Source: Blastocystis hominis
Taxonomy: Eukaryota; Sar; Bigyra; Opalinata; Blastocystidae
Assembly: GCF_000151665.1 (NCBI RefSeq)
Contig: NW_013171826.1
Span: 2,501-66,500 of the forward strand
DNA length: 64,000 nt
Direction of reading: 5' to 3'
Below, piece by piece: positions 4,703 through 63,251 of the stretch. Each line of letters begins with the position of its first letter. Within the stretch, counting starts at the first letter, position 1. The translations under genes and the position numbers were made by a program. The notes under the pieces are model-generated. The model did not search any database. It was not told the DNA's origin and saw only the letters and a program-made list of their open reading frames with translations.

Positions 4703-4746
4703 GGGGCAACGTACGTTGCCCCGGGAGGAATCTTCGATTCCTCCCC
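4703..4746 (+). repeat. Double hairpin, leader of copy A
   Basis: Arm 1 GGGGCAACGTACGTTGCCCC, arm 2 GGGAGGAATC-TTC-GATTCCTCCC. The same element is in copy C at 45958, with arm-1 loop TAC. Confidence 0.85.
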
Positions 4747-4781
4747 ATTGTCTTGTTGACTAAGGTAAAGAGAGAAAGACC

Positions 4782-7700
4782 ATGCACTACTCCATGCTTA
4801 TTCAAGGCTCACCTACCAACGGCTCATTTACATGGGTTAATCCGTACAAGTACAAGAATCCCTATATCACTTCCATGACTGTCCTGTTTCATCCTAATGG
4901 TTCGATGTTTAATAACGTAGACACGACCAATGTGATTACTAACAGCAATGACGAGAAGGTGACAATCCCTGCTGGTTATTACACGATCAGTGAGATCATT
5001 GCCTTGCTCAATACCATGACCGATACTACATTTTCCATATCTACGAATGCCTCGTCGTTCGGCTGTATCTGGATTCAGTCTCCACACACCATTGACTTCA
5101 CAGATGCACCTGATATTCGTGAGATCCTCGGCTTCGATGGACGAACGGTCATTCTACCTGCTTCGTTCAGTGGATCGAACGTGATTGATATCACGCGAAA
5201 TCGACAAGTGATTCAGGTCTACTCGACGATCGTGCGATCATCGGACCTGAAGATTGCCAACCAGAACAACAACCTGCTCACCACGATGATCATTGACGAT
5301 CCAACGGCTGACTACGTGCGAACTGTGGAAGACGTGTGTATTCCAATGATCACTCGGTTTGATCAATTGATGTTCGTGTTCCGCGATATGGATGGCAAGA
5401 TGATGCGATTGAACGGCGAATTCGAACTCCAGTTGACGATTGAGGACGTGATGGAGGAAGTGCCTTCATCGATGGGGGAAGCTTCGCTTCCCCCGGGGGT
5501 GACGATGTCACCCCCAACGATTGTCTCTGCAAACCAGTTCAGTATGATGGAAGTGTTCGGTAATACCACCAAGAAGGAAGTGAAGCTGGGCAATCCTCTC
5601 TCGTTCGACCAGTGCTACATCTCGTCTGTGTCGTTGTATACGGACTTCGTGTTGCACAACGTGCCGACTGATCAAATGGTGCTAATCAATGCTGGCGCTA
5701 CGATTCAAGAGATCACGATACCACGCGGTGCATACGACATCGAAACGATCATTGCAAAGCTGAATGCAAGTGATGCCCTGTTCGAATTGGTGTATAGCGG
5801 TGAGAATGCGTTCCACATCACGGTAGATCACTTCTACATGATCGATTTCACGAATGCACCAGAGATCAGGTCGATCCTTGGTTTCGAATCGGACATCTTG
5901 GTGAAAGGAGTGGATAACCCGAAGCGCTACTACTTGTCGTCCTCATGTAATCACGTGGTTGTTACTGATGGCAGGGAATCGCACATGTTGACATTGCCTG
6001 TCGGTTACTACACGTTCAGCGAGTTCATCGAGGCTGTCGGTGCTGAAATGGTGAAAGTGCTTCCACTCACATCCATGACGATCGAGGATGATCATGTTCG
6101 CTTCAATGTCCAAGCAGACGGATGGTATTTCAATCGATCCAGCGTTGACACGACGATCGATGGTTTTGGTTGGACTCCATGGTTCAAATTGACATCAACG
6201 GTACGCAATCTGTGCATCGAACGACCAGTGGAAGCTTCGTTCAACCCTGAAAGCGATTCCCCTCCTGATATGACGAATGATCAAGGTATTGGTGGTCATG
6301 CGTACATAGGATCAAACACCTTTATTGCTTATGACTGGAAAATGCGTACGAATGATAATCGGTTCCTGCTAAAGCCTCTCGCGACATACACGATGCGCCT
6401 AGCTGATGGTTCAGTACTCGATAGTGGTGAATTCTACATAACGGAAGATACGTCTACCCCGATCAAGATGAATACTCTTACAACCACATGTTTTAATGAA
6501 CTCAATGCTCGATATGCGAGTGCTATGGAACTACCTCCATCTCACCAGAATGCGATTGCGTGGACGGTGAATGACAATAGAGAAAGCATGTCATGGACTG
6601 CGAAGGACTATGCACCAGAATTGGAATTGCATATCACATCGGAAAATACAGGTGACTTGGTGTCATCGAATGGTTCTTCGATCGGACCTTGGTATTCCAA
6701 GGATAGTATATATCACACGAAAGTGTTTATCGATACGACTCATTTTATACTTGGAATACGTGGATATGGCGAAAGACCTCTCACAATCCAACGAGGTCAT
6801 TATAGCGCTATTGATATCGTGAATATGATCGCTAATGTGATCAATAAGATATATGTAGATGCGTCTCTCGGAGGGTACTTGGTATATGTCATTGCAGATA
6901 ATGGTGGTCGAGTACGAATGGGATGTCGAAATGGTACAGAACCACGATTCATATTGTTTTGTGATAATCCATGTTTCAAGATTATACCCGGACCATACGC
7001 TGAACCAGGTGGTGTGTATTTGTCTTGTTATTTCGAGTTTTATCGCAATTACTACCTCAGGATGCCCGAGTTGACATCACCTTACGAGTTTGCGATGGCA
7101 AACATCGATGGACTGAATGTGACGAATATGATCAAAGGTAGTACGTATTCCGATCGTGCTGTGTCGATCGAATTCATACAACCGACACGTGTTACGTATG
7201 TCGGTCTTCACCCATCATTGGCTACCTTCGTTGACTGGGAACAATCTGAGTCGTACACGGCTAACACGACGATTCGCTTCCCGTACGGAATGATGACACT
7301 GGACGAAGAGGGAAGCAGTGCTTCCCCCGAGACTGATATCACGTACACAGATGACACGGTGAACCACACGTGGACCATACCATCACGATTGACACAGGCT
7401 GACATGATATGGCGCATGAATCAATGTTTTGACTCGGCTGCACTTGACATACGATGGAAAGCTGAGTCAGATGGGTACTACATTCACGCAGACCACGTGT
7501 TCTCGTTGAGTGGCAACCTGGGAACCATCGTTCCCGCTTCAGGATCGCAATCGCATACATGGCGTATCCCTTTCGACGATGGTGTGTACTATGCCAACTA
7601 TGGTCCGATGGTTGCCGAGTATCCTGTCGATATCACGAACGGTCTATCGAACATACAGCTGTATTGCAACATCGTGAAAAGCAAGACGATACCACTGCTT

Positions 7701-7886
7701 GCGAATGTGCCGATGGACAGCTTGTACAAGAATTACTTCTACAAGAATCGCATGTTGGTACCATGTTCTGAATTGCTTGATCGCATCGTGTACGAATTGA
7801 AGGACGAAAATGGTGACCCGCTATCGTTCATTGGGAACGTGTACCTGCTGATCGGCTTCACTGTTTCAGGAGGAAATAATAAATGA
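4782..7886 (+). CDS. Multi-module capsid/spike protein (1034 aa)
   Basis: A giant virion-type protein made of recurring modules. Each module starts with a pattern like TIPAGYYTISEIIALLN (residues 61-77, 312-328, 404-420, about 668-688, 865-880). Two continue with IDFTDAPDIREILGF-like segments (104-118, 354-368). Module ends look like VFRDMDGKMMRLNGEFELQL (199-218) and YELKDENGDPLSFIGNVYLL (1004-1023). The same start and end signatures occur in the next two genes, so all three are paralogues. Polintons carry similar proteins thought to be virion components; I infer a penton or spike role. Residues about 505-760 are strongly diverged from copy C while the flanks are nearly identical. A double hairpin is inserted in frame at 5474-5515 and a single hairpin at 7310-7326. 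The stop overlaps the next start as ATGA. Confidence 0.75.
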   Translation: MHYSMLIQGSPTNGSFTWVNPYKYKNPYITSMTVLFHPNGSMFNNVDTTNVITNSNDEKVTIPAGYYTISEIIALLNTMTDTTFSISTNASSFGCIWIQSPHTIDFTDAPDIREILGFDGRTVILPASFSGSNVIDITRNRQVIQVYSTIVRSSDLKIANQNNNLLTTMIIDDPTADYVRTVEDVCIPMITRFDQLMFVFRDMDGKMMRLNGEFELQLTIEDVMEEVPSSMGEASLPPGVTMSPPTIVSANQFSMMEVFGNTTKKEVKLGNPLSFDQCYISSVSLYTDFVLHNVPTDQMVLINAGATIQEITIPRGAYDIETIIAKLNASDALFELVYSGENAFHITVDHFYMIDFTNAPEIRSILGFESDILVKGVDNPKRYYLSSSCNHVVVTDGRESHMLTLPVGYYTFSEFIEAVGAEMVKVLPLTSMTIEDDHVRFNVQADGWYFNRSSVDTTIDGFGWTPWFKLTSTVRNLCIERPVEASFNPESDSPPDMTNDQGIGGHAYIGSNTFIAYDWKMRTNDNRFLLKPLATYTMRLADGSVLDSGEFYITEDTSTPIKMNTLTTTCFNELNARYASAMELPPSHQNAIAWTVNDNRESMSWTAKDYAPELELHITSENTGDLVSSNGSSIGPWYSKDSIYHTKVFIDTTHFILGIRGYGERPLTIQRGHYSAIDIVNMIANVINKIYVDASLGGYLVYVIADNGGRVRMGCRNGTEPRFILFCDNPCFKIIPGPYAEPGGVYLSCYFEFYRNYYLRMPELTSPYEFAMANIDGLNVTNMIKGSTYSDRAVSIEFIQPTRVTYVGLHPSLATFVDWEQSESYTANTTIRFPYGMMTLDEEGSSASPETDITYTDDTVNHTWTIPSRLTQADMIWRMNQCFDSAALDIRWKAESDGYYIHADHVFSLSGNLGTIVPASGSQSHTWRIPFDDGVYYANYGPMVAEYPVDITNGLSNIQLYCNIVKSKTIPLLANVPMDSLYKNYFYKNRMLVPCSELLDRIVYELKDENGDPLSFIGNVYLLIGFTVSGGNNK
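5474..5515 (+). repeat. Double hairpin inside 1034-aa gene
   Basis: Arms GGGGGAAGC-TTC-GCTTCCCCC and GGGGGTGAC-GAT-GTCACCCCC. 42 bp, in frame, flanked by ATCGAT and AACGAT. Absent from copy C. Confidence 0.88.
6294..7061 (+). other. Hypervariable segment of the 1034-aa protein
   Basis: Codons about 505-760 differ at a large share of residues from the copy C counterpart (about 47521-48250), with several small indels. Sequence on both sides is almost unchanged, for example MPELTSPYEFAMANIDGLNV just after it. This suggests exchange of a domain or diversifying selection on an exposed part. Confidence 0.7.
7310..7326 (+). repeat. Single hairpin inside 1034-aa gene
   Basis: GGGAAGCAGTGCTTCCC, read in frame as part of EEGSSASPE. 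Copy C lacks it. Confidence 0.7.
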
Positions 7887-8215
7887 ATCTAGTGTTCAAC
7901 ATTGCTCGAACGTACGAACATGAATTCACGAGTAACAATCTCATCAAAAGCGACATGGTAATCGACAGAGTGACTATGAAAGGAGAATCGCCTGGCACCT
8001 GCCTTGTCCTTGATCGAGTGAACAACATGCAAGAACGACGACAGTCTCCGTTGGTTGTATTGAACGAGGAGTACACGGAGAATGCACACATGAACGTCGT
8101 GGTACCCAAAAGTCGCAAATGGTCATTCTCGTTGACCGATAAGACCGGTGCAACGATTGCCCTGCCAATGCCGATTACAGTGTGCATTCACTTTCATGTT
8201 CTACACAATAAATGA
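7883..8215 (+). CDS. Small jelly-roll-like capsid module protein (110 aa)
   Basis: A short beta-rich protein whose C-terminal end, SLTDKTGATIALPMPITVCI, has the same pattern as the module ends of the 1034-aa and 232-aa neighbours (Asp, Gly, then alternating hydrophobics). I infer a reduced virion module. It starts at ATG 7883, inside the stop of the upstream gene (ATGA), and its own stop overlaps the next start in the same way, implying coupled expression. The copy C version at 49081 is nearly identical. No enzymatic motif is present. Confidence 0.7.
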   Translation: MNLVFNIARTYEHEFTSNNLIKSDMVIDRVTMKGESPGTCLVLDRVNNMQERRQSPLVVLNEEYTENAHMNVVVPKSRKWSFSLTDKTGATIALPMPITVCIHFHVLHNK

Positions 8216-8910
8216 GTCATAATCGTGCACTACCGGTAAGTGTTATTAACCACAATACAGTAATTCCGAAGAACAACGAACGATACCATGAAACGTTCAA
8301 CACAGTGATCATGCCTCGTGACCTTGTGTACAAGATCACTTCGATTACGTGCAAGATCGATACAACGTCTCTATGGAACATTCGTGCAATGAATGTGGTG
8401 AAGGTTCAAATGTTGTCAGGGTTTGAAATGGTGTACAACGTCGGTCCTGGCTACTACTCGATTACCGAGTTATGCCGTGCGATCGCCGATTCCATCCAGG
8501 TAGACGATGTTAACCGAGCATACTTGAACAGTGACGTGGCGACCGCTGTTGACCTTAGTGGCGCACCTGATTATACGAGTATTCTCAAGTTGGAAGGTAT
8601 CGTTGAGGCAGGCATGGTAGCGAGTGAACCCTACGACATCACGAATGGCATGAGTGTGATCCGAGTCTACAGTAGTATCAATGCTCAAACATTCGGTCTG
8701 AAGAGTCCGCTGATTGATAACCTGATTCACGTATCGATGGGACTGAACAACATGATCACCTGGGACAACCTATCGATCGATGTGATTGAACAATCGAACC
8801 TGGACTACATTGATTGGGTACTGACGGACGCGAATGACCGTCCGATCTCATTAAATTCGAATGTGTACATCTCATTCACGATTTCGTGTTATTCGAAAGA
8901 GACAAAGTAA
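8212..8910 (+). CDS. Single-module capsid paralogue (232 aa)
   Basis: It contains one full copy of the module found repeatedly in the 1034-aa protein: GPGYYSITELCRAIADSI, then AVDLSGAPDYTSILKL, then VLTDANDRPISLNSNVYISF near the end. Module content points to a minor capsid or penton-like component; no experiment supports this here. A short loop around residue 125 differs between the three copies (IVEAGMVASE in A). The stop codon forms part of CAAAGTAAAG, a version of the boundary motif. Copy C is inserted into the copy B homologue of this gene. Confidence 0.72.
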   Translation: MSHNRALPVSVINHNTVIPKNNERYHETFNTVIMPRDLVYKITSITCKIDTTSLWNIRAMNVVKVQMLSGFEMVYNVGPGYYSITELCRAIADSIQVDDVNRAYLNSDVATAVDLSGAPDYTSILKLEGIVEAGMVASEPYDITNGMSVIRVYSSINAQTFGLKSPLIDNLIHVSMGLNNMITWDNLSIDVIEQSNLDYIDWVLTDANDRPISLNSNVYISFTISCYSKETK

Positions 8911-8914
8911 AGAA

Positions 8915-8936
8915 GGGGAGACGGCAAAGTCGCCCC
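8915..8936 (+). repeat. Degenerate single hairpin
   Basis: GGGGAGACGGCAAAGTCGCC followed by CC is an imperfect hairpin in the 47-bp spacer before the coiled-coil gene. Copies B and C lack the spacer altogether and have the stop directly followed by the start (TAAATG). Confidence 0.55.
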
Positions 8937-8957
8937 ACATTGTTCCTCCCATAGTAA

Positions 8958-11360
8958 ATGGATGAATACGTTGCTACAATTCCAATCATTCGATTCAAAC
9001 CACACAAAGTGAAATCGAGAAACATGATGGACAAGATGTTGAATCGATATTTCGATAAAGTCGTTGAAAGTGAATTCAATCAACAGCGAATGAGGAGCGA
9101 ACAATGGCGACAGAAGCGAACCTTGTTTGATTCGTACATGAATCTCTCACCTGCTGAACGTCGTCGTGTATCCGTCTCTGACATGCGTGGATATCAAATG
9201 CAGCGAATTGATAATGAGAACGTACTGTTGTACTCATTCGAGGACAATGTGGTCTACAATGCCAAAATTGAGAAACGATTCAAGAAGATCATTGTTCAGG
9301 CTGTGAATCACGAGTTATCTGATATGGAGAAACGAGCTATCTTTGATAATCCATTTGGATATGAGCCAGTATCACCCTATCGTATCAAGTACAAGAGAAC
9401 ACAGGTTGGCGATGCACAAATCGTGAATATAACTGGTGATCTTGGAACTAGCATCAACGAAATGAAGAATGCTGCTGATGCCATAACGGTTGCAGCTCAA
9501 CAGATGGGAGATAGTATCAACACATTTACTCATCAGAATGCAACGATTATCAATGATTTTGCTCACTTGCAAGACGATGTGGAAGAACAAGGTGAACCAT
9601 TAACAAAATCGCTAAAATATAATGATGATGGTACTATGAGAGAAACCATTCTTACACAACGTGTGAGACGAGGTAGTAGGAATTATAAGTTATTGTTGGC
9701 TCGAGGTTATGTAGAACGAGGAGACTGGTCTAGTCATGTACCAGAACCAGAACCTGTGAATGTGACGAATCAGATCGTACAACAGATGGATGTGACGTCC
9801 ATTATCACCAAGTTGGATGAAGTGATTGCTGTGATGAACAGCTTTGATATCCAGGTGAACCTTGTTAACATTCATGGAGCAATCAACAAAGTAGCACAAC
9901 GAATCAACTTCTTAGAAGATGCGCAGAAGGGTTATCCTAAGATGTTGAACTTGTTGAAGGATGTTAATACCAAACTGCAAAATACGAACCAAGGAATCAG
10001 GTTGTTAAGCAATCAATATGCTGAAGTGGCAAAAAGCATTGCGACAGGAGACGACAAGTTGATTAAGAATGTTAGTAACTTGATAAATCAGCAGAAAGCT
10101 GTGATTCAGGAGAGTAATCGATATCTGCAAAGAATCGAAACTCGTCTCCAAGGAATTGAAAACAAACCCGATCCTCCTGCGATTGCTGATATCGTAGCAA
10201 TGATTCCAAGACAAAGTGAAATGCGAATCGATGGATTGACAGAGTTCATGAAGGCGCAGTACAATGATTTCTTGAAACAATGGCTAGAGCGAAACAGCTT
10301 CATCCAGCAATTTGTATCTGCTGAGTTGGCAAAAGCATATGATGAAATCAACAAACGGTTGGTTGAATCATTCAATACATTCACACCTTTGATTCAAAAC
10401 GTGTCCAATGAATTGCAGACTACGAATCAGAATCTGATAGCTCTTGGTAATGCGGTTGCAGAAGAGGGAAAGGCAACTAGGAAACAACTATTGGATGGTA
10501 CGAATGCTCTGGGCAACCAATATGAACAAGGACAAGCTCAAACAACCAAGTTAATCAAAGATTCTACGGGTGCAATTGTTAATCAACTTGCTGACAATCA
10601 GACTAAAACTGGTAACCTGTTGACAAATGGATTCAATTCCATGAGTAGCCAACTCACTGACAATCAGACTCAAACTAACAACCTGTTGACAAATGTTGGT
10701 AATGCAGTTGTTGATGGACATGCTCAAACTGGTCAGCTGATTACTACAATGAGTAATCATTTTGCTGATACTCAGCTGTCCCGGGAACAATTATATCAAC
10801 AATTGTATCAGCAGAATATGAGAGGAATCCAGAACTTAATGGATGCCATTTGGCAATCATATGAATATTTCCGGAATCAGCCACAAATTCAACCTGTGAT
10901 TGTACTGGACGGTCGTCAATCTGAAAGTGTAAATGCTAGTTTCACACCTCAAGCAATCGATCAAGTGAATCGAGCTGCAGCCTTGATTGACGCGTATGAA
11001 AGTAAAGATTCTAATGACACCAAGGAAAGTTGGGAAAGCGATGATACTCGCGAAGATTTCATTGCTTTCTCAAGTTTGCTTGCTCGCAATTTCAACAATC
11101 CTGTTTTCGCTCAATTTGCAAATGACCTTGGATTCTCACGTCTCTTCAGGGCTTATCGTGATCGAAATGAAGACCCCGAACTGATGAGTTTCTTCATACG
11201 AGTAGCTAATAGTAAGGATCTAACTCCTGATTATTTGGACTACATGAAAAACAAGATCAAACGGTTTGCTGTCAATGTAGATCAACAATTCGAGCAATAT
11301 CTGCAAAATACGTACAACACGATCAAGGATATGTTCATTACACAGGGTTTCAATGGCTAA
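8958..11360 (+). CDS. Long coiled-coil protein (800 aa), virion-associated candidate
   Basis: A mostly helical, Gln/Asn-rich protein. The N-terminal 130 residues are basic and strongly conserved between copies. Residues about 190-260 vary. A long heptad-like coiled coil follows, with near-repeats such as ADNQTKTGNLLTNGFNSMSS and TDNQTQTNNLLTNVGNAV at about 560-620. The C-terminal third is conserved and ends ITQGFNG. Number and type of the short repeats differ among copies (835 aa in C). There is no catalytic motif. Its place between capsid modules and the pVI-like gene suggests a structural role comparable to scaffold, peripentonal or length-ruler proteins, but this is inference. The ATG follows TAA in the TAAATG context. 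Confidence 0.6.
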   Translation: MDEYVATIPIIRFKPHKVKSRNMMDKMLNRYFDKVVESEFNQQRMRSEQWRQKRTLFDSYMNLSPAERRRVSVSDMRGYQMQRIDNENVLLYSFEDNVVYNAKIEKRFKKIIVQAVNHELSDMEKRAIFDNPFGYEPVSPYRIKYKRTQVGDAQIVNITGDLGTSINEMKNAADAITVAAQQMGDSINTFTHQNATIINDFAHLQDDVEEQGEPLTKSLKYNDDGTMRETILTQRVRRGSRNYKLLLARGYVERGDWSSHVPEPEPVNVTNQIVQQMDVTSIITKLDEVIAVMNSFDIQVNLVNIHGAINKVAQRINFLEDAQKGYPKMLNLLKDVNTKLQNTNQGIRLLSNQYAEVAKSIATGDDKLIKNVSNLINQQKAVIQESNRYLQRIETRLQGIENKPDPPAIADIVAMIPRQSEMRIDGLTEFMKAQYNDFLKQWLERNSFIQQFVSAELAKAYDEINKRLVESFNTFTPLIQNVSNELQTTNQNLIALGNAVAEEGKATRKQLLDGTNALGNQYEQGQAQTTKLIKDSTGAIVNQLADNQTKTGNLLTNGFNSMSSQLTDNQTQTNNLLTNVGNAVVDGHAQTGQLITTMSNHFADTQLSREQLYQQLYQQNMRGIQNLMDAIWQSYEYFRNQPQIQPVIVLDGRQSESVNASFTPQAIDQVNRAAALIDAYESKDSNDTKESWESDDTREDFIAFSSLLARNFNNPVFAQFANDLGFSRLFRAYRDRNEDPELMSFFIRVANSKDLTPDYLDYMKNKIKRFAVNVDQQFEQYLQNTYNTIKDMFITQGFNG

Positions 11361-11398
11361 TGAATATATCTTTGATCTTCTTTTCACTTTGTAGGCAT

Positions 11399-11437
11399 GG
11401 GGCACGAAGTGCCCCCGGGGAGAATGAAATTCTCCCC
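11399..11437 (+). repeat. Double hairpin before pX/pVI-like gene
   Basis: Arms GGGGCAC-GAA-GTGCCCC and GGGGAGAAT-GAA-ATTCTCCCC. Copy B has the uninterrupted TAGGCATAAATGG at this place. Confidence 0.85.
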
Positions 11438-11445
11438 ATACATAA

Positions 11446-12540: not shown

Positions 12541-12563
12541 AGAAATTGTATATGCACGGCTAC

Positions 12564-12953
12564 ATGAATATGGATGCTGAACCAATGACTTTCGATGAAG
12601 TTCGAAAACTGGCCAAGCAACTCGAGATACCCGACTTCGATGTGATGGAATTGGGCAAGTACAAGTCCTTGGCAAAGAAGTACAAAGAACCGGCGAATTG
12701 CATCATCTGGATACCATTCGAGGATAATGGTAAGCTCGGTCATTTCGTTTCTTGCTTCCGTGAAGACGATGGCACACTGAACTACCAGGACAGCTTTGGC
12801 GAGATGAATGACTTCCCATTAGCAGATACGAACCGTGTGTTCCGTGTGAACAAAGTGAAATACCAGTCGATCTTTGCCAATAACTGTGGCTACTTGGCAC
12901 TCCTTCACTTGTACACGCACGACGCTGTTGACCCGGCGATCCAAAGGGTGTGA
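12564..12953 (+). CDS. PRO: Adenain-like cysteine protease (129 aa)
   Basis: Maturation protease of the Ulp1/adenain fold. The catalytic set is visible in order: His60 in KLGHFVSCF, Asp76 in NYQDSFGE, Gln101 in KYQSIF and Cys108 in ANNCGYLALLHL. It is expected to cut virion precursors, and the GG-Ala-rich protein upstream is the likely substrate. An in-frame TTG lies at 12537, overlapping the previous stop, but I chose ATG 12564 because copies B and C share only this start (MNVDAEPMTFDEV). At 129 residues it is shorter than adenovirus proteases yet keeps the core. A double hairpin begins right after its TGA stop. Confidence 0.9.
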   Translation: MNMDAEPMTFDEVRKLAKQLEIPDFDVMELGKYKSLAKKYKEPANCIIWIPFEDNGKLGHFVSCFREDDGTLNYQDSFGEMNDFPLADTNRVFRVNKVKYQSIFANNCGYLALLHLYTHDAVDPAIQRV

Positions 12954-12991
12954 GGGGAAGCGAAGCTTCCCCGGGGGCACGTTGTGTCCCC
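12954..12991 (+). repeat. Double hairpin after protease gene
   Basis: Arm 1 GGGGAAGC-GAA-GCTTCCCC, arm 2 an imperfect GGGGGCACG/TGTGTCCCC. Copy C has the same element with another hairpin inserted in arm 1. Confidence 0.85.
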
Positions 12992-13041
12992 TACTGTAAC
13001 TATTGTACTTAAAAGAGTTCAATACATAAATACAAATAGAA

Positions 13042-13938: not shown

Positions 13939-13974
13939 CCCAAAGTAAACATGATCGATCCTTTTTCACTTTGG

Positions 13975-14030: not shown

Positions 14031-14045
14031 CTTTGGCCATCACGG

Positions 14046-17570: not shown

Positions 17571-17578
17571 AGTAGTAA

Positions 17579-53805: not shown

Positions 53806-53825
53806 GCCTCTACACCCACGGCTAC

Positions 53826-54215: not shown

Positions 54216-54276
54216 GGGGAAGCGAAGCTTGGGAGGCAAAGCCTCCCAAGCTTCCCCGGGGGCACTACGTGTCCCC
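54216..54276 (+). repeat. Double hairpin with nested hairpin after protease, copy C
   Basis: Compared with 12954-12991, a 17-bp hairpin GGGAGGCAAAGCCTCCC (54231-54247) sits in arm 1 between two copies of AAGCTT (54225-54230 and 54248-54253). Confidence 0.9.
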
Positions 54277-54326
54277 TTCTGTAACTATTGTACTTAAAAG
54301 AGTTCAATACATAAATACAAATAGAA

Positions 54327-55382: not shown

Positions 55383-55416
55383 CCCAAAGTAAACATGGCG
55401 ACCTTTTTTACTTTGG

Positions 55417-55459
55417 AGGCGACAACGTCGCCTCGGGAGAGAAACATAGTTTCGCCCCT
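55417..55459 (+). repeat. Double hairpin with perfect CTTTGG duplication, copy C
   Basis: Arms AGGCGAC-AAC-GTCGCCT and GGGAGAGAAACATAGTTTCG; CTTTGG at 55411-55416 and 55460-55465. Confidence 0.9.
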
Positions 55460-55465
55460 CTTTGG

Positions 55466-56863
55466 CTATGCCAGTCCATACCTCGATCGTAGTCCTTTCT
55501 TTTTACTTTGTCGTACATTGCTATCTTTAGGTTGATCCACGTTTGCCATGCCATCACGTGGCTTCTGTACGAACTGGAATTCCTTGGTGTTGATGGCTTT
55601 GCTATAGTCCTGTGGTTTGATTTCAACGGCTTCTTTGATGTCCAAGAGATTGTACGTGCGACTCTTGTCTCTCTTGTTTCTCTTGTCATCGGGACAACGA
55701 AGTTGTCCCGGGACGCACGAAGTGCGTCCCTGTCCCTCACTTCTCGCTATACCCTTGCCTAGTTCCTCTTCGAGTTGCTGTACTTGTCGTTGCTTCTCTT
55801 CCACTTCTTTGCGTTTTCGTTCATCACTCAATGCCTTCGGTAACTTCGAACGCATCTTGTTGATCGCTTGTTGTTTGCTACTCAGCTCGTATGGGACGTA
55901 CTCGACTAGCGAATCGTCATCCAAGTAGTACCATCGTGTGTGCATGCCCATCTGGATATCACGAAGTACCTCGCTCAAATTGGACGGTGGTGGTATCTTC
56001 ATTTTGCGCCACAAATCCTCGCGTCCAAGGATGTCATAGTACAAGAAGATTCGAGTGGCGTTATCCAGAATCTTGTTGCTCAATCGAGAGAATCCTTGGA
56101 AGGCAATGAAGCAACTGGTCTTCCGATGTCGACTCATGCAAGCCATGGTGTCCATGAAGTTCACCACCCAGTGATCGTTCGGCTTCGTGTACAGGTCGTC
56201 GAAGATGTAGATGGACGGATACGTGGTGTCGTTGTAGATCGCCACACTTGATCCATCGTCATTCAATTGTTTGTACGCGACGTCCTCGCTATCCGTAAAG
56301 TCAGGACGCACTTCGTTGTCAGTGTTGATCCATTGCGTCTTAATGCCTGCTTTGTTGGCGACATGTTTGAGCACTTGTGGACACTTGTTTTCATAGCTGA
56401 CCTTTCCCATGAAGAAGCAGATCTTGTCGAACGAGTGAGGTATCTCGTAGCACAACTGATTGATGAGGAACGACTTACCCGACTTGGAAGGAGCAATGAT
56501 GAGCGTGAATTGATTGAGGAATGTGTCCTGGCAATCAAGTTCCCAGTCGAACTTCATAATGCCCATGCTTTCCTTGTTCTGTCGAAGATCCTGCAATTGC
56601 TCGTCAATGGTTTGCTCTGGTTGTATGTAGTCGGCTAGTTCTCGCAGTATTTTGGCATATTGCTTGCTCTTCTCTTCATCGGTCTCATTCTCCATCCGTT
56701 GTTTGATGGTATCCTGCATTACTTCGGCTTGATTGAGCGTATTTTCTGTTCTTCTCGTCAATCGTTTGTTGTTGTACGGACATCGATGGTTAAATCGTCT
56801 TATTCGGTTCTTGATAGCGAGCAATGTTGTATCAATGTTGGGAATGTACGGACTATCTTCCAT
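55466..56863 (-). CDS. ATP: Packaging ATPase, copy C (465 aa)
   Basis: Intact, with Walker A APSKSGKS, Walker B IYIFDDL and FIAFQGFSRL. There is no hairpin loop after WIN (as in B). A different double hairpin (55691-55730) sits in the tail, at a position unlike those in A. Confidence 0.9.
   Translation of the reverse strand: MEDSPYIPNIDTTLLAIKNRIRRFNHRCPYNNKRLTRRTENTLNQAEVMQDTIKQRMENETDEEKSKQYAKILRELADYIQPEQTIDEQLQDLRQNKESMGIMKFDWELDCQDTFLNQFTLIIAPSKSGKSFLINQLCYEIPHSFDKICFFMGKVSYENKCPQVLKHVANKAGIKTQWINTDNEVRPDFTDSEDVAYKQLNDDGSSVAIYNDTTYPSIYIFDDLYTKPNDHWVVNFMDTMACMSRHRKTSCFIAFQGFSRLSNKILDNATRIFLYYDILGREDLWRKMKIPPPSNLSEVLRDIQMGMHTRWYYLDDDSLVEYVPYELSSKQQAINKMRSKLPKALSDERKRKEVEEKQRQVQQLEEELGKGIARSEGQGRTSCVPGQLRCPDDKRNKRDKSRTYNLLDIKEAVEIKPQDYSKAINTKEFQFVQKPRDGMANVDQPKDSNVRQSKKKGLRSRYGLA
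55691..55730 (+). repeat. Double hairpin in ATPase tail, copy C
   Basis: Arms GGGACAAC-GAA-GTTGTCCC and GGGACGCAC-GAA-GTGCGTCCC, in frame; only in C. Confidence 0.87.
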
Positions 56864-56955
56864 TTATTCATGGAGGCAACCACGGCAATCACGACAGCCA
56901 CGGTGACCATGATAGCCAAAGTGAAAAAGGTAGTCACAGCAACCACGGTAGCCAT
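56800..56955 (-). CDS. Small membrane protein, copy C (51 aa)
   Basis: Start directly after the TAA of the 181-aa gene. Hydrophobic helix MATVVAVTTFFTLAIMVTVA onward, with one extra Ser before MNKWK. Open for its whole length and overlapping the ATPase start, as in A and B. Confidence 0.62.
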   Translation of the reverse strand: MATVVAVTTFFTLAIMVTVAVVIAVVASMNKWKIVRTFPTLIQHCSLSRTE

Positions 56956-57501
56956 TTACAGGAAATCGCAATCGAAGACACTATTCTTATCCTTGATTTT
57001 GATTTGCGTTGCTGTGAGAGTTGTGTACGAGAACTCGGTGTTTTTGCCGTCCTTATCTTCCTTCATGAACTCCTTGCTCTCCCCGGTTACCACAAGATCG
57101 ATCGTTGCATCCTTGTATTCGCGAAGATCAGTACATGGCACATTTCGTAGATCGATTTTGATCGGTTTCTTGTCGTTATTCACGATCTTCGTGTTCGGAC
57201 TCAATTTCACTTTGAACTGGATCTCGCCATCGTATTCGCTGTACGGCTGATTCTCTCTCTTCGTCTTATCGAGGATTCTTTTGAACACTTCCGATTGCTC
57301 CTTGGGCAGTGTGATGGAGAAAGTGTTGAACAGTTTCTTCTTGTCTGTTTCGAACTTCGAGTTGTCACCCACGAAAACAATGGTAGCATCGGTGATCTTG
57401 CAGACATACTTAGCCGATTCGCCTTCTTTCTTGAATCCATTCGAAGTGAGAGAAATGTTAGAAGCATTGGAAAGATCGAAAACCTGAATCTTGTTGCTCA
57501 T
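56956..57501 (-). CDS. Possible ssDNA-binding protein, copy C (181 aa)
   Basis: Intact homologue of 15572-16117 with the same acidic aromatic end NSVFDCDFL. Upstream sequence on its strand is AT-rich (AAATATAAATAGATATG). The SSB idea rests only on composition and context. Confidence 0.4.
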   Translation of the reverse strand: MSNKIQVFDLSNASNISLTSNGFKKEGESAKYVCKITDATIVFVGDNSKFETDKKKLFNTFSITLPKEQSEVFKRILDKTKRENQPYSEYDGEIQFKVKLSPNTKIVNNDKKPIKIDLRNVPCTDLREYKDATIDLVVTGESKEFMKEDKDGKNTEFSYTTLTATQIKIKDKNSVFDCDFL

Positions 57502-57557
57502 ATCTATTTATATTTATTTATTGAAATCTTTAAGTGATATTAGTTAGCCTTACGCTT

Positions 57558-57595
57558 GGGGAAGCGTAGCTTCCCCGGGGAGCCTGCGGCTCCCC
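57558..57595 (+). repeat. Double hairpin at capsid gene stop, copy C
   Basis: Arms GGGGAAGC-GTA-GCTTCCCC and GGGGAGCC-TGC-GGCTCCCC. TTACGCT at 57550-57556 and 57596-57602. Confidence 0.92.
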
Positions 57596-58885
57596 TTACG
57601 CTCCCACCGTATTGGCACGGATCATGATGAGGTGCATCTGGGTCGTCGCTGCAACATCCTCTTCCAACTCGATTTCAAACTGGATCTGATTCGCTGCTCG
57701 CATCGGGAACCACTCGGCTAACGGGAAGGCAAAGATTCGGAACTGATTCAACCACGTCTTGTACGTCAACAGCGTGTCGTACTCGTCGGAACGACTATTG
57801 CAAAGATAGTCCATCCATTCGAAGAACGTGTGATCAATTCCATCAGGTGTGTTCGTGTTGTCCACATTGATGATACGCTTCTGTTCACCAGCGATGTTCA
57901 ATGAGATACGCTTGAATCGAATGTCCTTGAGAGTCGAGAAATCGCCATTGTCGTCCGTGAACATCATGAACATCATCTTGACGGGGAAGTTGACCAGCAC
58001 ACGATCATCGATGAAGTTCTGGCCAGAAGGAATGCGGAACGTCTTGGTCATGATCTGGTTCTTCACCAACTGAGTGTCCTCAGGATCGAAGGTCGAATCA
58101 TCGCTCGTCTTGTAACTGTGGTACCAAAGCGTACACGTGTCGAAATACACACCGGTGAAAGCCGTGGCTGATGGAACAGCGTCCGGACTTGTAGCGGTAT
58201 TGATTTTGCCAGCATCGATGTAGAAGTATGCATCGTCGTTCGTGGGATAGATCTGAGCATCCATCTGCGTGAGATTGATGAATCGTTCCTGAGAACAACC
58301 TTCGAAGATGTCTGCAAAGTTCACATTGATCGTCGTGTACGCCGTGGTCGAATTGTTGGGCTGTACGAACTTGAGCATGTTGTAGAACAACTTCCCACCA
58401 TAAGGTCGACCCAGGATGGCCGCAGCTCTCTCGGTTTCATCGTCAGTATCGTAGTCCAATGCATCGTAGTAGATGTAGGACAGTTCCTTCAATCCTTCAT
58501 TCACCACATTGTTGTGCTTGTTGTCCGTGAGCGCATTCAAGAGTGACCGGATCTGGCCGATGTTTTCATTGTCAGCACTCAGAGGCAAGGACGCCAAGTT
58601 CTCACCATTCCAATAGGTGTACGTGACCTTCGTGTTGTTCACAATGCCCGACATGTTCTTCTTCACCGGAACATAGAATACCTTGGGTGAACCTGTTGCG
58701 TTATTTGCCAATCCGGTGATCTTGAGCTTGAACGTCATTCGAGACTTGTACAGATTGAAGTACACGTCATCACCGGATGGAGCGATCGTCCAATTGATCA
58801 CATCGGTCGACTTGATGTTATTGGACTGATTGCTGAACACAATCTGCGATTCGTAGTTATGCACAGGAGGAATTGTAGTAGCCAT
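57596..58885 (-). CDS. Major capsid protein candidate, copy C (429 aa)
   Basis: Intact. It differs from A mainly in small surface-type stretches (NATGSPKVFYV; DALDYDTDDETERA). A double hairpin lies at the stop codon, with TTACGCT on both sides. Confidence 0.65.
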   Translation of the reverse strand: MATTIPPVHNYESQIVFSNQSNNIKSTDVINWTIAPSGDDVYFNLYKSRMTFKLKITGLANNATGSPKVFYVPVKKNMSGIVNNTKVTYTYWNGENLASLPLSADNENIGQIRSLLNALTDNKHNNVVNEGLKELSYIYYDALDYDTDDETERAAAILGRPYGGKLFYNMLKFVQPNNSTTAYTTINVNFADIFEGCSQERFINLTQMDAQIYPTNDDAYFYIDAGKINTATSPDAVPSATAFTGVYFDTCTLWYHSYKTSDDSTFDPEDTQLVKNQIMTKTFRIPSGQNFIDDRVLVNFPVKMMFMMFTDDNGDFSTLKDIRFKRISLNIAGEQKRIINVDNTNTPDGIDHTFFEWMDYLCNSRSDEYDTLLTYKTWLNQFRIFAFPLAEWFPMRAANQIQFEIELEEDVAATTQMHLIMIRANTVGA

Positions 58886-58893
58886 TTATTATA

Positions 58894-58936
58894 GGGCGAG
58901 AATTAAAATTCTCGCCCGGGGAATCGTAGATTCCCC
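58894..58936 (+). repeat. Double hairpin in capsid/fibre spacer, copy C only
   Basis: Arm 1 stem GGGCGAGAATT around AA, arm 2 GGGGAATC-GTA-GATTCCCC. Absent from A and B; 42 bp from the next element. Confidence 0.86.
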
Positions 58937-58978
58937 AATTACTACGAGGAAAAAACTGTTTTCTCTCCTCCATAGCAA

Positions 58979-59020
58979 GGGACAGCGAAGCTGTCCCGGG
59001 GAAAAACAAAGTTTTTCCCC
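58979..59020 (+). repeat. Double hairpin before fibre-like gene, copy C
   Basis: Identical to 17529-17570. Confidence 0.87.
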
Positions 59021-59028
59021 TGTAGTAA

Positions 59029-60297
59029 ATGGCAACACCAACACAACCTGAGAAACTTGTATATCTCCAGAATGGAGTATTCAAACGCAAGGAGATGACC
59101 GAGGGTATCCAGTACTACTCGGACAACTCTTTCGACACGTTCGCATTTCCGTCGACCAATGGCAACTACGTGCTTACCAAGACTGACGATGTGTACACAT
59201 GGTCGGTCGCAGGTGAAGATTTCACTTCCTTGGATAACTCGTATTTCAAGGGTAGCGATGGACAATCGATTATCATTCCAGCCAATGGAGCTATTCCCTT
59301 CTTCAAGAATAACTCGGCGTTCGGAGCGATCAATCTGCCAGAAAGTGGTTCTTTCATTCTCACGACTGACCCGGATAGTGGTCCTTCATTGGAAGCGTTG
59401 ACGAAGCCCGTAATTTTCGAGGCACTCGAACTTACGAGCACGTCGGACTGGTATGCGATACCGAACTGGAATTCGACCAAGAGTGATTCGAAGGATCTAT
59501 TTTTACCAAGTAAGTCGGGAACGTTCTTCCTTTCAGCCGATTCGAACAATGACTTCCTGTTCAACAAGGTCACACCAAGAAGTCTTTTCCATGAAGCTCT
59601 AGGAATCGGATCTGATGGGCAGAGAATCGTCACCTACTGGAACGATGGAGCCCATGGTCTACCATTGCCAACCACGGCAGGCTATGCGACATTCAAGGTC
59701 GAGAGTAGCAATGAGAGTCCAATTCTTACTAATCTCACGCCTGAGATCGTCTACAAAGACATCCTCGGGTGTACTAGCAATGAAAAGTGTCTCGTGTACA
59801 ACAATGGGGCCAACGTGTCCAAGCTAACAATCCCATCCACTGCTGACAAGTACGTCATGGAAGTCAAAGAAAACGGCACAGTCTCGTTATCACCCACATC
59901 GGCTAAATTGAGTAAGACATTCGAGTACACCTCCTGGACAAGTGGACACCAGGTTGTTAGCGAGGCACTCACGTCGGAAGGTTCAGACCTTTCTGCACCC
60001 ATCAAATTGGAACCCAACAAGACGTACATGATCACCATCGATGCCGTACTTCGTTGTGACAACTATGAACAGGCACTTGTAGGATTCACGAGCGTGCCAA
60101 CTCTCGTAATGGGTGTCGAGACAGCTACAATCATTAAAGCAAGCTTGAATAATCCAGTGCCAACAACGACATTGAGTGGCACGAACATATTCACATCAGT
60201 ACGTCCTGTAGATATGAAAATTCAAATCTTACGTTCTGGAGACACCACGATCGAACATTACTTCACTCGACTGAAGGTAAGCATCATGGAAGTGTAG
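59029..60297 (+). CDS. Fibre-like beta-repeat protein, copy C (422 aa)
   Basis: Intact, with the same repeat openings as A and few substitutions. Two tandem double hairpins (58894, 58979) fill the spacer between it and the divergent capsid gene. Confidence 0.6.
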   Translation: MATPTQPEKLVYLQNGVFKRKEMTEGIQYYSDNSFDTFAFPSTNGNYVLTKTDDVYTWSVAGEDFTSLDNSYFKGSDGQSIIIPANGAIPFFKNNSAFGAINLPESGSFILTTDPDSGPSLEALTKPVIFEALELTSTSDWYAIPNWNSTKSDSKDLFLPSKSGTFFLSADSNNDFLFNKVTPRSLFHEALGIGSDGQRIVTYWNDGAHGLPLPTTAGYATFKVESSNESPILTNLTPEIVYKDILGCTSNEKCLVYNNGANVSKLTIPSTADKYVMEVKENGTVSLSPTSAKLSKTFEYTSWTSGHQVVSEALTSEGSDLSAPIKLEPNKTYMITIDAVLRCDNYEQALVGFTSVPTLVMGVETATIIKASLNNPVPTTTLSGTNIFTSVRPVDMKIQILRSGDTTIEHYFTRLKVSIMEV

Positions 60298-60323
60298 GGG
60301 GAGGAGACAAAGTGAAAAAGGAA

Positions 60324-60339
60324 GCCGTGGCTTCCAGTC
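60324..60339 (+). repeat. Single short hairpin
   Basis: GGAAGCCGTGGCTTCC in the spacer between two convergent genes, flanked by CAAAGTGAAA on one side and TTTTACTTTG on the other. Confidence 0.6.
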
Positions 60340-60341
60340 TT

Positions 60342-60779
60342 TTACTTTGGCGGTAATCGTTTACCCGATACACATTCGAGTTGATCAAATGCAACACCAT
60401 CGATATCAATGATAATTATATCACCACCTAATGTCATCACACGATGACCTTCGATATCATAGATATTCTCATTGAAAGCACGGAGTTCAGCAATGTTTCG
60501 GGGAAGCTTCGCTTCCCCGGCGGGACTTTGTGGGAAGTCTTCGGCTTCCCGGGGCGACAAAGTCGCCCCACTTTGTCCCCCATACTTCACTATGTATTTA
60601 TCATCATAACATGATTTCACAAGAAGATGTTGAAGATCGGGTGAATTTATCATCATATAAGGAGGATTATACTCATTATGATAATTTGTACCTTTTGGGT
60701 CCTCAACAAATGAATTAATCATATCATGCACATATTTACGTGTGATATCAAGACGTTCATCATTCATCCAACAGTTCAT
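60342..60779 (-). CDS. 129-aa protein homologue with nested insertion, copy C (145 aa)
   Basis: Same family as 18928-19317, but more diverged at the ends. A nested double hairpin (60500-60580) is read in frame and adds about 27 residues rich in Gly/Ala/Pro/Arg before NENIYDIEGHRV. The C-terminus is shorter. Upstream on its strand: AATGTAAACATAAATAGAAATACAAATG shows the A-rich leader in two parts, AACATAAATAGAAATACAAA then ATG. Confidence 0.55.
   Translation of the reverse strand: MNCWMNDERLDITRKYVHDMINSFVEDPKGTNYHNEYNPPYMMINSPDLQHLLVKSCYDDKYIVKYGGQSGATLSPREAEDFPQSPAGEAKLPRNIAELRAFNENIYDIEGHRVMTLGGDIIIIDIDGVAFDQLECVSGKRLPPK
60500..60580 (+). repeat. Double hairpin nested in a double hairpin, in 129-aa-type gene
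   Basis: Outer arm 1 GGGGAAGC-TTC-GCTTCCCC (60500-60518). Outer arm 2 is split after CGGGACTTTGT by a 38-bp double hairpin (60532-60569), with ACTTTGT at 60525-60531 and 60570-60576. Read in frame. Confidence 0.92.
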
Positions 60780-60827
60780 TTGTATTTCTATTTATGTTTA
60801 CATTATTTAAATCTATTTAGGCATCCC

Positions 60828-61067
60828 TCATTTCACTTTAATCTCTGTCGGACTGATCGATATATCACTCCCACTATCATCACTACTCTCGTTCTTCTCG
60901 TTGTACACGCACAAGCAGTGACATCTGTCCTTGCATTTCGAATCAATGGGGAGAGCTTCGCTCTCCCCGGGACAGCTTCGCTGTCCCATCACAACCACCA
61001 GTTTGTGGTTCTTCCTTCCACTCATCCATTTCCATGCACTTTTCAGCCATTGAATAAAGCGGTTCAT
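60828..61067 (-). CDS. Small Trp/Cys protein with hairpin insertion, copy C (79 aa)
   Basis: N-terminus and Cys/His tail as in A, separated by 16 extra residues (MGQRSCPGESEALPID) encoded by a double hairpin at 60948-60987. A and B have no insertion here. Start codon back to back with integrase. Confidence 0.6.
   Translation of the reverse strand: MNRFIQWLKSAWKWMSGRKNHKLVVVMGQRSCPGESEALPIDSKCKDRCHCLCVYNEKNESSDDSGSDISISPTEIKVK
60948..60987 (+). repeat. Double hairpin in 63-aa-type gene, copy C
   Basis: Arms GGGGAGAGC-TTC-GCTCTCCCC and GGGACAGC-TTC-GCTGTCCC; near-repeat ATCAA/ATCACAA on the two sides. Empty in A and B. Confidence 0.88.
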
Positions 61068-61069
61068 TT

Positions 61070-62143
61070 ATGAACGAGATCAAGGAACTACGGAAACCAG
61101 CCAAGCGAAAAGGTGCAACTCGAGTGATCATCAGTTCATTCAAGAGAAACATATACTTCATCGATCTCATCGATTTCTCTTCCAAACAAGACAAATGGAT
61201 TCAGGAAGTGTTGGGCAGACAGAAGAGTACAGGATTCCACAAGAATCGTGGATACAAGTATGTCCTTGTGTGCATTGATGGATATTCGAAATACCTGATG
61301 GCTCGGCGACTGAAAAGCAAGAGTGCCACAGAAGTCACGCATGCGATGAAGGACATCATTCAGACATACGGACCACCAAAGCATATTTGCTCTGATCGAG
61401 GTACCGAGTTCACCAATGCCATCTTTCGTACCAACATCTTGGACAAGTATGACATCACCATGTATCACATGGATTCAGCGAATAAGGCAGTACTAGCCGA
61501 ACGAACAATTCGAGATATCAAGGAAGACATCATGGTTCCATTCAATCAATCGAAAGGTGTGTGGTTCGACTTGATCGATGGTGCCGTTCGTAGACACAAT
61601 GCAAGGAAGAACAGAGACACCGGATATGCACCCACTGACATTTGGAACAACAACATCTTGTACACGGAGAAGACAGAACCATCCAACATGACAGCGAAGG
61701 ACACAACACCTCAATTCAATGTGGGTGATTATGTTCGAGTGACACGAAGACCTCGCGTTCTGGAAAAGCGATCATTGACGAGCAAATGGTCTCAGGACTT
61801 GTATCAAGTTGTTGACATTGACGATCGATTCATGCCATTGATGTACGAAGTGAAGAATATGGAAAGCGGTAGCAAGCAGAAGTGCTATCATTGGGAACTC
61901 CTGGCTAGCAAATGCAAACCACAGCCAGCACCACCAGTCACGCGATCCAAGAGTCGAAAGGAACCCAATGCATTGAGAGAGGTAGCAAGGTCACATCGAC
62001 CCATTACGAGGAGCCAGAATGGGACGACTTTGTCGTCCCGGCGGAACTTCGTGGGAAGCCGAAGGCTTCCCGGGGCGACAAAGTCGTCCCACTTTGTTCC
62101 GCCACAGAAACAACGTCGCCTAAATGTTCGAAAACGATCGTGA
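61070..62143 (+). CDS. INT: RVE integrase, copy C (357 aa)
   Basis: Intact catalytic core (IDLIDFSS, CSDRGTEFTN, VLAERTIRDIK). The basic tail is lengthened by a nested double hairpin (62021-62103) read in frame. The last 140 bases overlap the convergent 202-aa-type gene, and both frames cross the insertion. Confidence 0.92.
   Translation: MNEIKELRKPAKRKGATRVIISSFKRNIYFIDLIDFSSKQDKWIQEVLGRQKSTGFHKNRGYKYVLVCIDGYSKYLMARRLKSKSATEVTHAMKDIIQTYGPPKHICSDRGTEFTNAIFRTNILDKYDITMYHMDSANKAVLAERTIRDIKEDIMVPFNQSKGVWFDLIDGAVRRHNARKNRDTGYAPTDIWNNNILYTEKTEPSNMTAKDTTPQFNVGDYVRVTRRPRVLEKRSLTSKWSQDLYQVVDIDDRFMPLMYEVKNMESGSKQKCYHWELLASKCKPQPAPPVTRSKSRKEPNALREVARSHRPITRSQNGTTLSSRRNFVGSRRLPGATKSSHFVPPQKQRRLNVRKRS
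62021..62103 (+). repeat. Nested double hairpin in integrase tail
   Basis: Outer arm 1 GGGACGAC-TTT-GTCGTCCC. Outer arm 2 is split by a 38-bp double hairpin (62053-62090) almost identical to the inner one at 60532, flanked by ACTTCGT (62046-62052) and ACTTTGT (62091-62097). Confidence 0.92.
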
Positions 62144-62212
62144 TGCTCTTCACACCACCTAGAAGCATGAGAGGAAGATTCGAATACGTACGAAGGACAG
62201 GAGAGTTGTAGG

Positions 62213-62229
62213 GGGAAGCGTTGCTTCCC
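62213..62229 (+). repeat. Single hairpin in 202-aa-type gene, copy C
   Basis: GGGAAGC-GTT-GCTTCCC; A and B lack it. Confidence 0.65.
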
Positions 62230-62693
62230 ACAATATTCACAACAGCATAACCAGTATGAGACACAAGACTATTCAATGTATCGATGTACGGTCTGTCTAG
62301 GATAGGCGTGTTGTCAAACGTGACTAGCACTCGATAACCCTTTTCAACCACCGATTCGATTGACATGCAATCGTTGAACATGTCATCGGGAAGGTACGTT
62401 ATGACAGTCGTGGTTATCAGGTACGATCCGGACGGCATAGGCGGCATACCATCACCACCCCATTCGCTATTGAATGATTCGGTAGTTTCTGGTGTGTATT
62501 CGAAGACAAATGCTTCATTCGCTCTTCACGATACAAGCCGCACTCCCCCACGAGTATTGAGGAACACCATCCACTGTCTCTCGAATTAGCACATGATGAC
62601 CGTCCTTCTCTGGCATGTTGATGAGCATGTTGTCGAGCTTCTTGAACGTGTAGTTGTTTCCATTGCTGCTGAAAATGTACGACATTTACTTTT

Positions 62694-63251
62694 TTACTTT
62701 GGATGATTTCGTTGATATGCACGAACGTACACACCCTTCAGACACGCACCATCATCGATGAACAAATCGGACAACTCGGGAGGCACTTCATCATCCACCA
62801 CCTTGAAGACCACGCGAACATAGTAGTTGGAGAAGAAGTAAACAGCACGATTCTCGGTCGTTACACCGATTATGTGAGTGGGTAGTGAATTGGGGGCACT
62901 ACGTGCCCCGGGAGCAACTTCGTTGCTCCCTGCATCGCCTCTCCAAAACACGTTCAGAGGCACACCGAGCAGACCATTGGATTTCAATTGAGGTAATAGA
63001 TACTCCCATTCATCCTCGGTAAACAAAGGTGGGCGAGTTTCGTCCAACGTCATCTCCATGCAATCATAGTCGTGCAAGATCAAACCACAGTTCACATTTG
63101 CTTGCGGAGTGCAAACACTGAAGCCGAATAGACGCTCGGAATTGATCGGATACTTGGTGTGAATGATGATGTCGGCGAGTTCGATATTCTCGTCCTCACA
63201 AGTGCGTACCAGGGAAGACCATGTGTTGTTTTCTGTTTTCTTGTACTTCAT
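62694..63251 (-). CDS. 169-aa protein homologue with hairpin insertion, copy C
   Basis: I take the start at ATG 63251 (MKYKKTENN), shared with A and B, although the frame is open further upstream. Intact; a double hairpin (62893-62930) adds GDAGSNEVAPGARSAPN after VFWR. The rest is nearly identical to A. Confidence 0.62.
   Translation of the reverse strand: MKYKKTENNTWSSLVRTCEDENIELADIIIHTKYPINSERLFGFSVCTPQANVNCGLILHDYDCMEMTLDETRPPLFTEDEWEYLLPQLKSNGLLGVPLNVFWRGDAGSNEVAPGARSAPNSLPTHIIGVTTENRAVYFFSNYYVRVVFKVVDDEVPPELSDLFIDDGACLKGVYVRAYQRNHPK
62893..62930 (+). repeat. Double hairpin in 169-aa-type gene, copy C
   Basis: Arms GGGGCAC-TAC-GTGCCCC and GGGAGCAAC-TTC-GTTGCTCCC, in frame; empty in A. 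Confidence 0.88.

Follow-up and report, generated by a model that had tools for sequence, protein, structure and literature searches.

A 64,000-nucleotide stretch of the Blastocystis hominis genome (assembly GCF_000151665.1, contig NW_013171826.1, positions 2,501 to 66,500 of the forward strand), here called the window, contains three copies of a Polinton, labelled A, B and C. Polintons in this genome are about 22.7 kb long, carry terminal inverted repeat (TIR) ends AGTAGTAG/CTACTACT, and encode a family B polymerase (PolB; Pfam profile DNA_pol_B_2, E=1.4e-15), an rve integrase (E=7.8e-12), a KilA-N protein and a conserved 429-aa protein that is a candidate double jelly-roll capsid protein (its best PDB sequence match is weak, E=0.19). 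Dispersed through all three copies are short GC-rich units composed of two adjacent hairpins, and these double-hairpin units are the subject of this report.

Structure of the units

A first-pass annotation of the window had proposed about 30 GC-rich units of 38-43 bp across the three Polinton copies, each with two adjacent hairpins and usually 3-nt loops. We first looked across the window for perfect hairpins whose loops are 3-5 nt long, and then modelled the unit as two 8-bp stems with 3-nt loops. At a cut-off of E<=0.005, this covariance model recovers 32 unit places in the window, all within the three Polinton copies, in agreement with the proposed number and architecture. Two of these places (60500 and 62021) are partial matches adjoining a nested unit, and three weaker matches (E 0.046-0.25) likewise lie within Polintons. 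Double units measure 35-45 bp in all DNA fetched, much as annotated, and 82 of the 148 units detected join two hairpins end to end. A strict pattern, GGGGN{9,15}CCCCGGGGN{9,15}CCCC, occurs eight times in the window, at six distinct places, where 100 shuffles predict 0.00 matches. Each of five units gave exactly two hairpins when folded as single-stranded DNA (z -5.4 to -7.5), and no Rfam family reaches its gathering threshold. The host stretches 1-4181 and 26888-28213, which had been described as free of units, contain none by either the hairpin scan or the covariance model.

The units share the general form GGG...C-NNN-G...CCC, with the two hairpins head to tail. The pair closing the loop is C-G in 207 of 211 perfect 3-nt-loop hairpins and in 108 of 111 hairpins when counted by site. 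GAA/TTC is the commonest loop (94/211), and GNA/TNC loops make up 72 of the 111 site-hairpins (77 of 118 in the oriented set) versus a 12.3% background for C-NNN-G. The available text of PMC4686876 describes C-GNA-G as an extraordinarily stable DNA mini-hairpin. Stem sequences differ between units while the architecture stays constant, as the annotation had noted: 98.8% of stem cells are paired versus 80.1% in shuffles, a comparison over 16 rows, eight of which are the reverse complements of the remaining eight. Single stems are often shared, with 21 of 55 found in at least two site clusters and GGGGAAGC in 11. Pairs of stems rarely recur, although the pair GGGAAGCC/GGGGCGAC occurs at two sites of one copy. 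Hairpins thus seem to be shuffled among units, as in yeast GC clusters.

Filled and empty sites

We compared orthologous flanks across seven Polinton copies (A to G) and a set of shorter loci. This comparison yielded 73 site clusters, of which 33 include both filled and empty copies. These correspond to at most 29 distinct sites, since at least four sites appear twice among the 33. One or two of the clusters do not represent true units. The observation that sites are filled in one copy and empty in another, made in the first-pass annotation from three copies, thus extends to a larger set. Judged from these alignments, insertion of the units at specific places in Polinton DNA is well supported.

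Many insertions are accompanied by a partial duplication of the target. When 30 clean filled/empty pairs were aligned, the left and right flanks matched at 119 of 195 positions. For a stricter test, we used 27 sites, made up of two further sites and 25 of the 30 pairs, after removal of one single-base case, one with a single hairpin and three repeats of the same site. Here 115 of 184 flank positions match, compared with 29% when right flanks are reassigned at random among sites, and none of 20,000 such shuffles scored as high. A perfect repeat of at least 4 nt is present at 12 of the 27 sites, with examples including ACTTCGT, CAAAGT, TTACGC and CAGAA. At the remaining sites 1-3 nt agree, and often one to three foreign bases adjoin the unit. 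The overlap of the flanks varies from 4 to 10 nt, and the imperfect duplication is mostly 4-8 nt. Because the repeats exceed chance but are often short or interrupted, target duplication is real on average and imprecise in the individual case. The unit ends carry no AGTAGTA-type sequence; beyond the GG/CC runs, a weak T...A preference is all that they share.

Some units have inserted into other units. In three cases a unit lies in the loop of an older hairpin and the repeat consists of the loop plus two bases on each side. One of these is in the PolB frame of three loci (L008, L010 and L016), and the others are in the window at 62053-62090 and at 60532-60569, where the older right arm is partly decayed. 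The PolB case has a perfect 7-nt repeat, ACTTCGT, and the frame is 1503 aa in the three filled copies versus 1488 aa in many others, a difference of 15 codons. In copy D and locus L028, a further unit occupies a loop and has a shifted and imperfect repeat. Nesting alone does not prove that loops are targeted, because selection may favour such harmless sites.

Loops have also turned around. Among 56 site-hairpin rows present in at least two copies, 16 show an inverted loop and four another kind of loop change, with one row in both classes. Removal of four repeated rows leaves 12 distinct inverted loops. Two of these inversions (AGT/ACT and GAC/GTC) could each have arisen by one point change, while the other ten would each need three. 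One switch from arm to arm accounts for each inversion, which requires the stems to come together as hairpins or copying to pass from one to the other. Such copying would cause a change in one arm to be matched in both, and could thereby generate varied yet perfect stems without selection for an RNA function.

The position of the units relative to genes was assessed with mechanically called open reading frames (ORFs), counting orthologous units in two copies as independent. On this basis, ORFs occupy 87.4% of the Polinton DNA but hold 14 of the 32 window units (binomial P 5e-9), and the other 18 lie in the 12.6% outside them. Six of these 18 intergenic units are between divergent ORFs, one of them across the junction of copies B and C. 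This avoidance of ORFs suggests that insertion harms the Polinton.

Insertions that do occur in genes survive in frame. The net insert is 41-51 bp in 33 polymorphic rows of double units, and the length change is a multiple of three in 18 of 19 coding rows (17 of 18 distinct sites); the frame-breaking exception is close to a TIR, in a doubtful ORF. Among inserts not called coding, 10 of 14 rows are also multiples of three, so selection for frame is not the sole cause or some ORFs were missed. We further compared hairpin-encoded pentapeptides with 120 of 406 homologues of the ORF at 11446-12540. They match 13 of the 46 closest homologues listed versus none for the reversed peptides, the sole control in this comparison. 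The same peptides are inserted in close homologues encoded on other public contigs, and the inserts are thus not artefacts of one assembly. A reading of the units as introns is unlikely because coding inserts stay in frame; Blastocystis introns are about 32 nt according to the available text of PMC3129679.

Location in Polintons

The genome-wide distribution was assessed from the matches listed by four pattern searches, on contigs C1-C13, and from Polinton spans, drawn around three protein markers (PolB, the 429-aa protein and the first ORF), which occupy no more than 12.5% of the genome. Forward matches number 267 for the double pattern (overlapping placements counted), 191 for the single hairpin GGGGAAGCNNNGCTTCCCC, and 69 and 155 for two more hairpin patterns, versus none in the reversed control of each. 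Among the matches listed, 107 of 108 distinct hairpin places fall within Polinton spans. With PolB as the sole marker, 29 of 31 and 43 of 50 rows among the matches listed lie inside, and the nine rows outside these PolB-only spans, read directly, are all in Polinton-like DNA.

Host DNA next to Polintons gives a consistent picture. Across 19 loci the covariance model places units only on the Polinton side of the TIR. The right-hand host flanks of 15 of these loci (16,436 bp) contain no unit, the TIR not having been found at the remaining four, and four further loci outside Polintons (13.6 kb) contain no hairpin unit. An equal density throughout the genome is thus contradicted by the listed places and about 35 kb of host DNA, and a near-exclusive location in Polintons is well supported. 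The units reside on nuclear contigs. A search for cox1 gave no match, but Blastocystis is not known to carry this gene. In IMG/VR, GGGGAAGCNNNGCTTCCCC occurs as a single hairpin in 30 stretches, which hold no double unit in 281,681 bp, and a second specific hairpin has no match. Single hairpins of such kind are therefore not diagnostic.

The Polintons themselves are abundant. PolB matches at least 66 places in the genome (66 of 247 candidates scored), the 429-aa protein has 83 matching rows and the initial 600 aa of the first ORF product have 74. No relative of the PolB or the integrase was found in IMG/VR. Copy E (on contig C10) has a 6-bp target-site duplication (TSD), TAATGT; no such 6-bp match flanks copies A, F and G, and for copy D no left end was found. 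Within the window (Table 1), copy C is nested in copy B, with its own TIR starting at 45677, which rules out a rearrangement border with both ends missing. A first-ORF match lies beyond the end of C (C12:72910-74667, minus strand), and from the sequence the missing part of B appears to lie past C, outside the window.

Several other features of the region were apparent. The polymerase frame of copy A (22150-26567) is split into two ORFs, whereas a single frame of about 1488-1503 aa is present in many other copies. Tandem repeats at 43286-43507 (66 bp, copy B) and 51708-52023 (54-108 bp, copy C), in the same corresponding ORF, vary between copies. In host DNA, AAGAACG is repeated about 10.7 times at 2045-2118, near the start of two overlapping ORFs without a Pfam match. 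An HSP90 gene of this genome is 99% and 98% identical to two NCBI proteins with the name Blastocystis hominis, and the genome is most likely that of subtype 7. The whole genome has seven HSP90-family matches, several of equal score on different contigs, which fits the duplicated blocks reported in the available text of PMC3129679.

Table 1. Polinton copies and double-hairpin units in the window (copies D to F and L-numbered loci lie elsewhere).
Feature	Position	Strand	Remarks
Polinton copy A, complete	4182..26887	+	TIR ends AGTAGTAGGGG / CCCCTACTACT; PolB, rve integrase
Double hairpin	4703..4745		upstream of first ORF of A; site filled in C too
Double hairpin	5474..5515		in ORF 4782-7886; net 48 bp; empty in C, D, E, F
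Double hairpin	11399..11437		intergenic; empty in B, C
Double hairpin	11626..11664		in ORF 11446-12540; empty in L030
Double hairpin	11748..11791		in ORF 11446-12540; net 51 bp; empty in L030
Double hairpin	12954..12991		intergenic; other copies: loop flipped or stem swapped
Double hairpin	13987..14028		between convergent ORFs
Double hairpin	14084..14121		in ORF 14046-15482
Double hairpin	14165..14201		in ORF 14046-15482
Double hairpin	16165..16202		intergenic; repeat TTACGC; empty in B
Double hairpin	17529..17570		between divergent ORFs; empty in B, D
Double hairpin	18892..18929		between convergent ORFs; empty in B
Double hairpin	20706..20747		in ORF 20442-21050; net 48 bp; empty in B, C
Polinton copy B	28214..45676	-	broken at 45676 by copy C
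Double hairpin, copy B	34147..34188		others apparently empty (flanks 81-93% alike)
Double hairpin, copy B	40987..41028		covariance model
Double hairpin, copy B	41053..41094		covariance model
Double hairpin, copy B	41548..41588		hairpin scan and covariance model
Polinton copy C	45677..64000	+	left TIR at 45677; right end beyond window
Double hairpin, copy C	45958..45999		ortholog of 4703-4745
Double hairpin	52840..52878		in ORF 52660-53805; ortholog of 11626-11664
Double hairpin	52986..53028		in ORF 52660-53805
Double hairpin with third hairpin within one arm	54216..54276		AAGCTT repeated
Double hairpin	55416..55457		intergenic
Double hairpin	55690..55730		in ORF 55466-56863
Double hairpin	57558..57595		ortholog of 16165-16202; loop GTA, not TAC
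Double hairpin	58894..58936		empty in A
Double hairpin	58979..59020		ortholog of 17529-17570
Hairpin, then partly decayed hairpin with double hairpin 60532-60569 in loop	60499..60569		ACTTTGT repeated
Double hairpin	60948..60987		net 48 bp; empty in A, B
Nest: hairpin, then hairpin with double hairpin 62053-62090 in loop	62021..62103		repeat ACTTCGT/ACTTTGT
Double hairpin	62893..62930		in ORF 62694-63299; net 45 bp; empty in A

Probable origin and proposed movement

We consider it probable that the units are a mobile mini-element of about 35-45 bp that inserts into Polintons, folding and moving in DNA form while the Polinton replicates. The first-pass annotation had called them a mobile miniature parasite of a transposon. 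Mobility finds support in the filled and empty sites, repeats, nesting and confinement, while for parasitism the evidence goes as far as suggesting harm. In the mechanism that we propose, a unit would fold and move, probably as single-stranded DNA, when the Polinton polymerase copies Polinton DNA outside the chromosome. The target would be cut in a staggered way, at times within an older hairpin's loop, and filled in around the folded unit, and arm-to-arm copying would keep the stems perfect and flip the loops. The agent responsible would act on Polinton DNA during the Polinton's own replication or packaging; both the carrier enzyme and the intermediate are inferred. The restriction to Polintons would then be explained, since replicating Polinton DNA alone would supply the single strands or enzyme that the units require. 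More tentatively, the unit may be a hyperparasite of a virus-like transposon, defined by its shape and not by its sequence, which is copied and inserted as folded single-stranded DNA only while the Polinton replicates, uses hairpin loops (its own included) as landing sites, and through arm-to-arm copying drifts freely in sequence while the fold is kept.

Several observations weigh against a mobile DNA element of this kind. The longest perfect repeat is at most 3 nt at 15 of the 27 sites, which a clean transposase would not give, and 37 of the 56 loop rows keep the loop uninverted. Of 35 stem-pair types, only two are found again at a clearly different site, so that most units are not recent copies of each other and hairpin shuffling or de novo making must also occur. 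One hairpin place among the matches listed, C9:24411, is outside the marker spans. No mobilising enzyme was found: the HUH Y1 transposase profile PF01797, the one profile with which a partner was sought, has no match in the genome. Among the more distant homologues listed, the pentapeptides match 3 of 74 versus 21 for reversed peptides and a mean of 20.4 (largest 67) for stem-shuffled ones; given this failure we make no claim for distant Blastocystis lineages, though some inserts there looked suggestive.

The same element could instead spread by way of RNA, with transcribed double hairpins being reverse-transcribed or templated into Polinton breaks, as proposed for Allomyces mitochondria. The imprecise junctions and hairpin shuffling do resemble Allomyces elements and yeast GC clusters as the available texts describe them (PMC2800124, PMC4478555), and the 14 window units within ORFs are, on their position, presumably transcribed. 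We nonetheless think this route unlikely: the favoured loops are of the DNA-stable GNA type, and RNA-borne copies should also reach host DNA, of which the portion examined has none. Errors of Polinton replication or repair might alternatively write new palindromes at random breaks, copying from no existing unit. Such de novo origin would fit the 33 of 35 stem-pair types that do not recur at clearly different sites, the imprecise duplications, and the loop flips that suggest arm-to-arm copying. It is rendered quite unlikely by features that chance errors would not produce: the strict stem grammar, with C-G at the closing position in 108 of 111 cases, the recurrence of single stems, and the end-to-end joining of two hairpins in more than half of the units.

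Two further explanations rely on the Polinton's own biology. Conserved and occasionally lost functional signals, either packaging signals or transcript-end hairpins of the mimivirus type, are hardly credible. Mimivirus transcripts end at hairpins that are not conserved in sequence, according to the available text of PMC4402537, and 18 of the 32 units lie between ORFs. The units are however not confined to gene 3' ends or constant for a gene: six of the 18 are between divergent ORFs, 14 are inside ORFs, and other copies lack a unit at several of the same borders between genes. Very improbable, too, is insertion of double-hairpin DNA by the rve integrase acting in trans with duplications of about 6 bp. 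Several repeats are 5-7 nt long and the Polinton on C10 has its 6-bp TSD, but the variable overlap of 4-10 nt and the lack of a shared AGTAGTA-type end do not fit. An integrase should moreover strike host DNA too, and by itself does not explain confinement.

REP and REPIN sequences are short bacterial palindromes with many copies, tagged ends and Y1 RAYT transposases, and are thought to move by structure; they differ from the present units in their transposase, to which the PF01797 search of this genome found no counterpart. Miniature inverted-repeat transposable elements differ as well, since repeats here are variable in size and the ends share little. Closer parallels come from organelles. 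The double-hairpin elements of Allomyces and other fungal mitochondria (Paquin et al., 2000, via PMC2800124 and PMC10085805) likewise have two adjacent hairpins (GC-rich in the fission yeast elements), occupy optional sites and are tolerated in genes. As far as these sources go, the Allomyces elements are said to lack flanking duplications, unlike the nuclear units described here with their above-chance direct repeats, GNA loops and loop flips. Yeast mitochondrial GC clusters (GC42; PMC4478555, available text) are similarly about 42 nt, GC-rich, palindromic and optional, and they merge and shuffle. They form a 90%-identity family with AG or ACT flanks, whereas stems here differ and AG/ACT duplications are absent. 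Short palindromes judged selfish in Volvox (PMC2670323, in part) have 3-5 nt loops in the plastid, but these are organellar, their loops are mainly TAAA or its complement, and nuclear copies are judged inert. The palindromic elements of Rickettsia (PMC10969869, in part) also insert in frame within genes, though they are bacterial and about 150 bp.

We found little precedent for the combination. The available text of the Blastocystis subtype 7 genome paper (18.8 Mb; PMC3129679) contains the words Polinton, Maverick, transposable and hairpin 0 times, and the sole literature link that we found between Blastocystis and Polintons is a reference-list mention. Papers on double-hairpin elements are mostly organellar by title. 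No such element appeared among the matches listed for Polintons with hairpins or palindromes, a search that left subscription papers mostly outside. The units are best called elements that work like double-hairpin elements and GC clusters, with a new host replicon and target repeats, and that depart from those elements in location and duplication.

Double-hairpin elements have so far been an organelle curiosity of obscure mobility. Their occurrence in Polintons makes the mechanism testable, because dozens of near-identical nuclear copies provide filled and empty sites, nests, target repeats and loop flips. Short in-frame peptide insertions arise repeatedly by this means in virus-like genes. 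Confinement further suggests that, unlike host DNA, Polinton DNA goes through an extrachromosomal, single-stranded or packaged stage, and thus bears on the view of Polintons as viruses.

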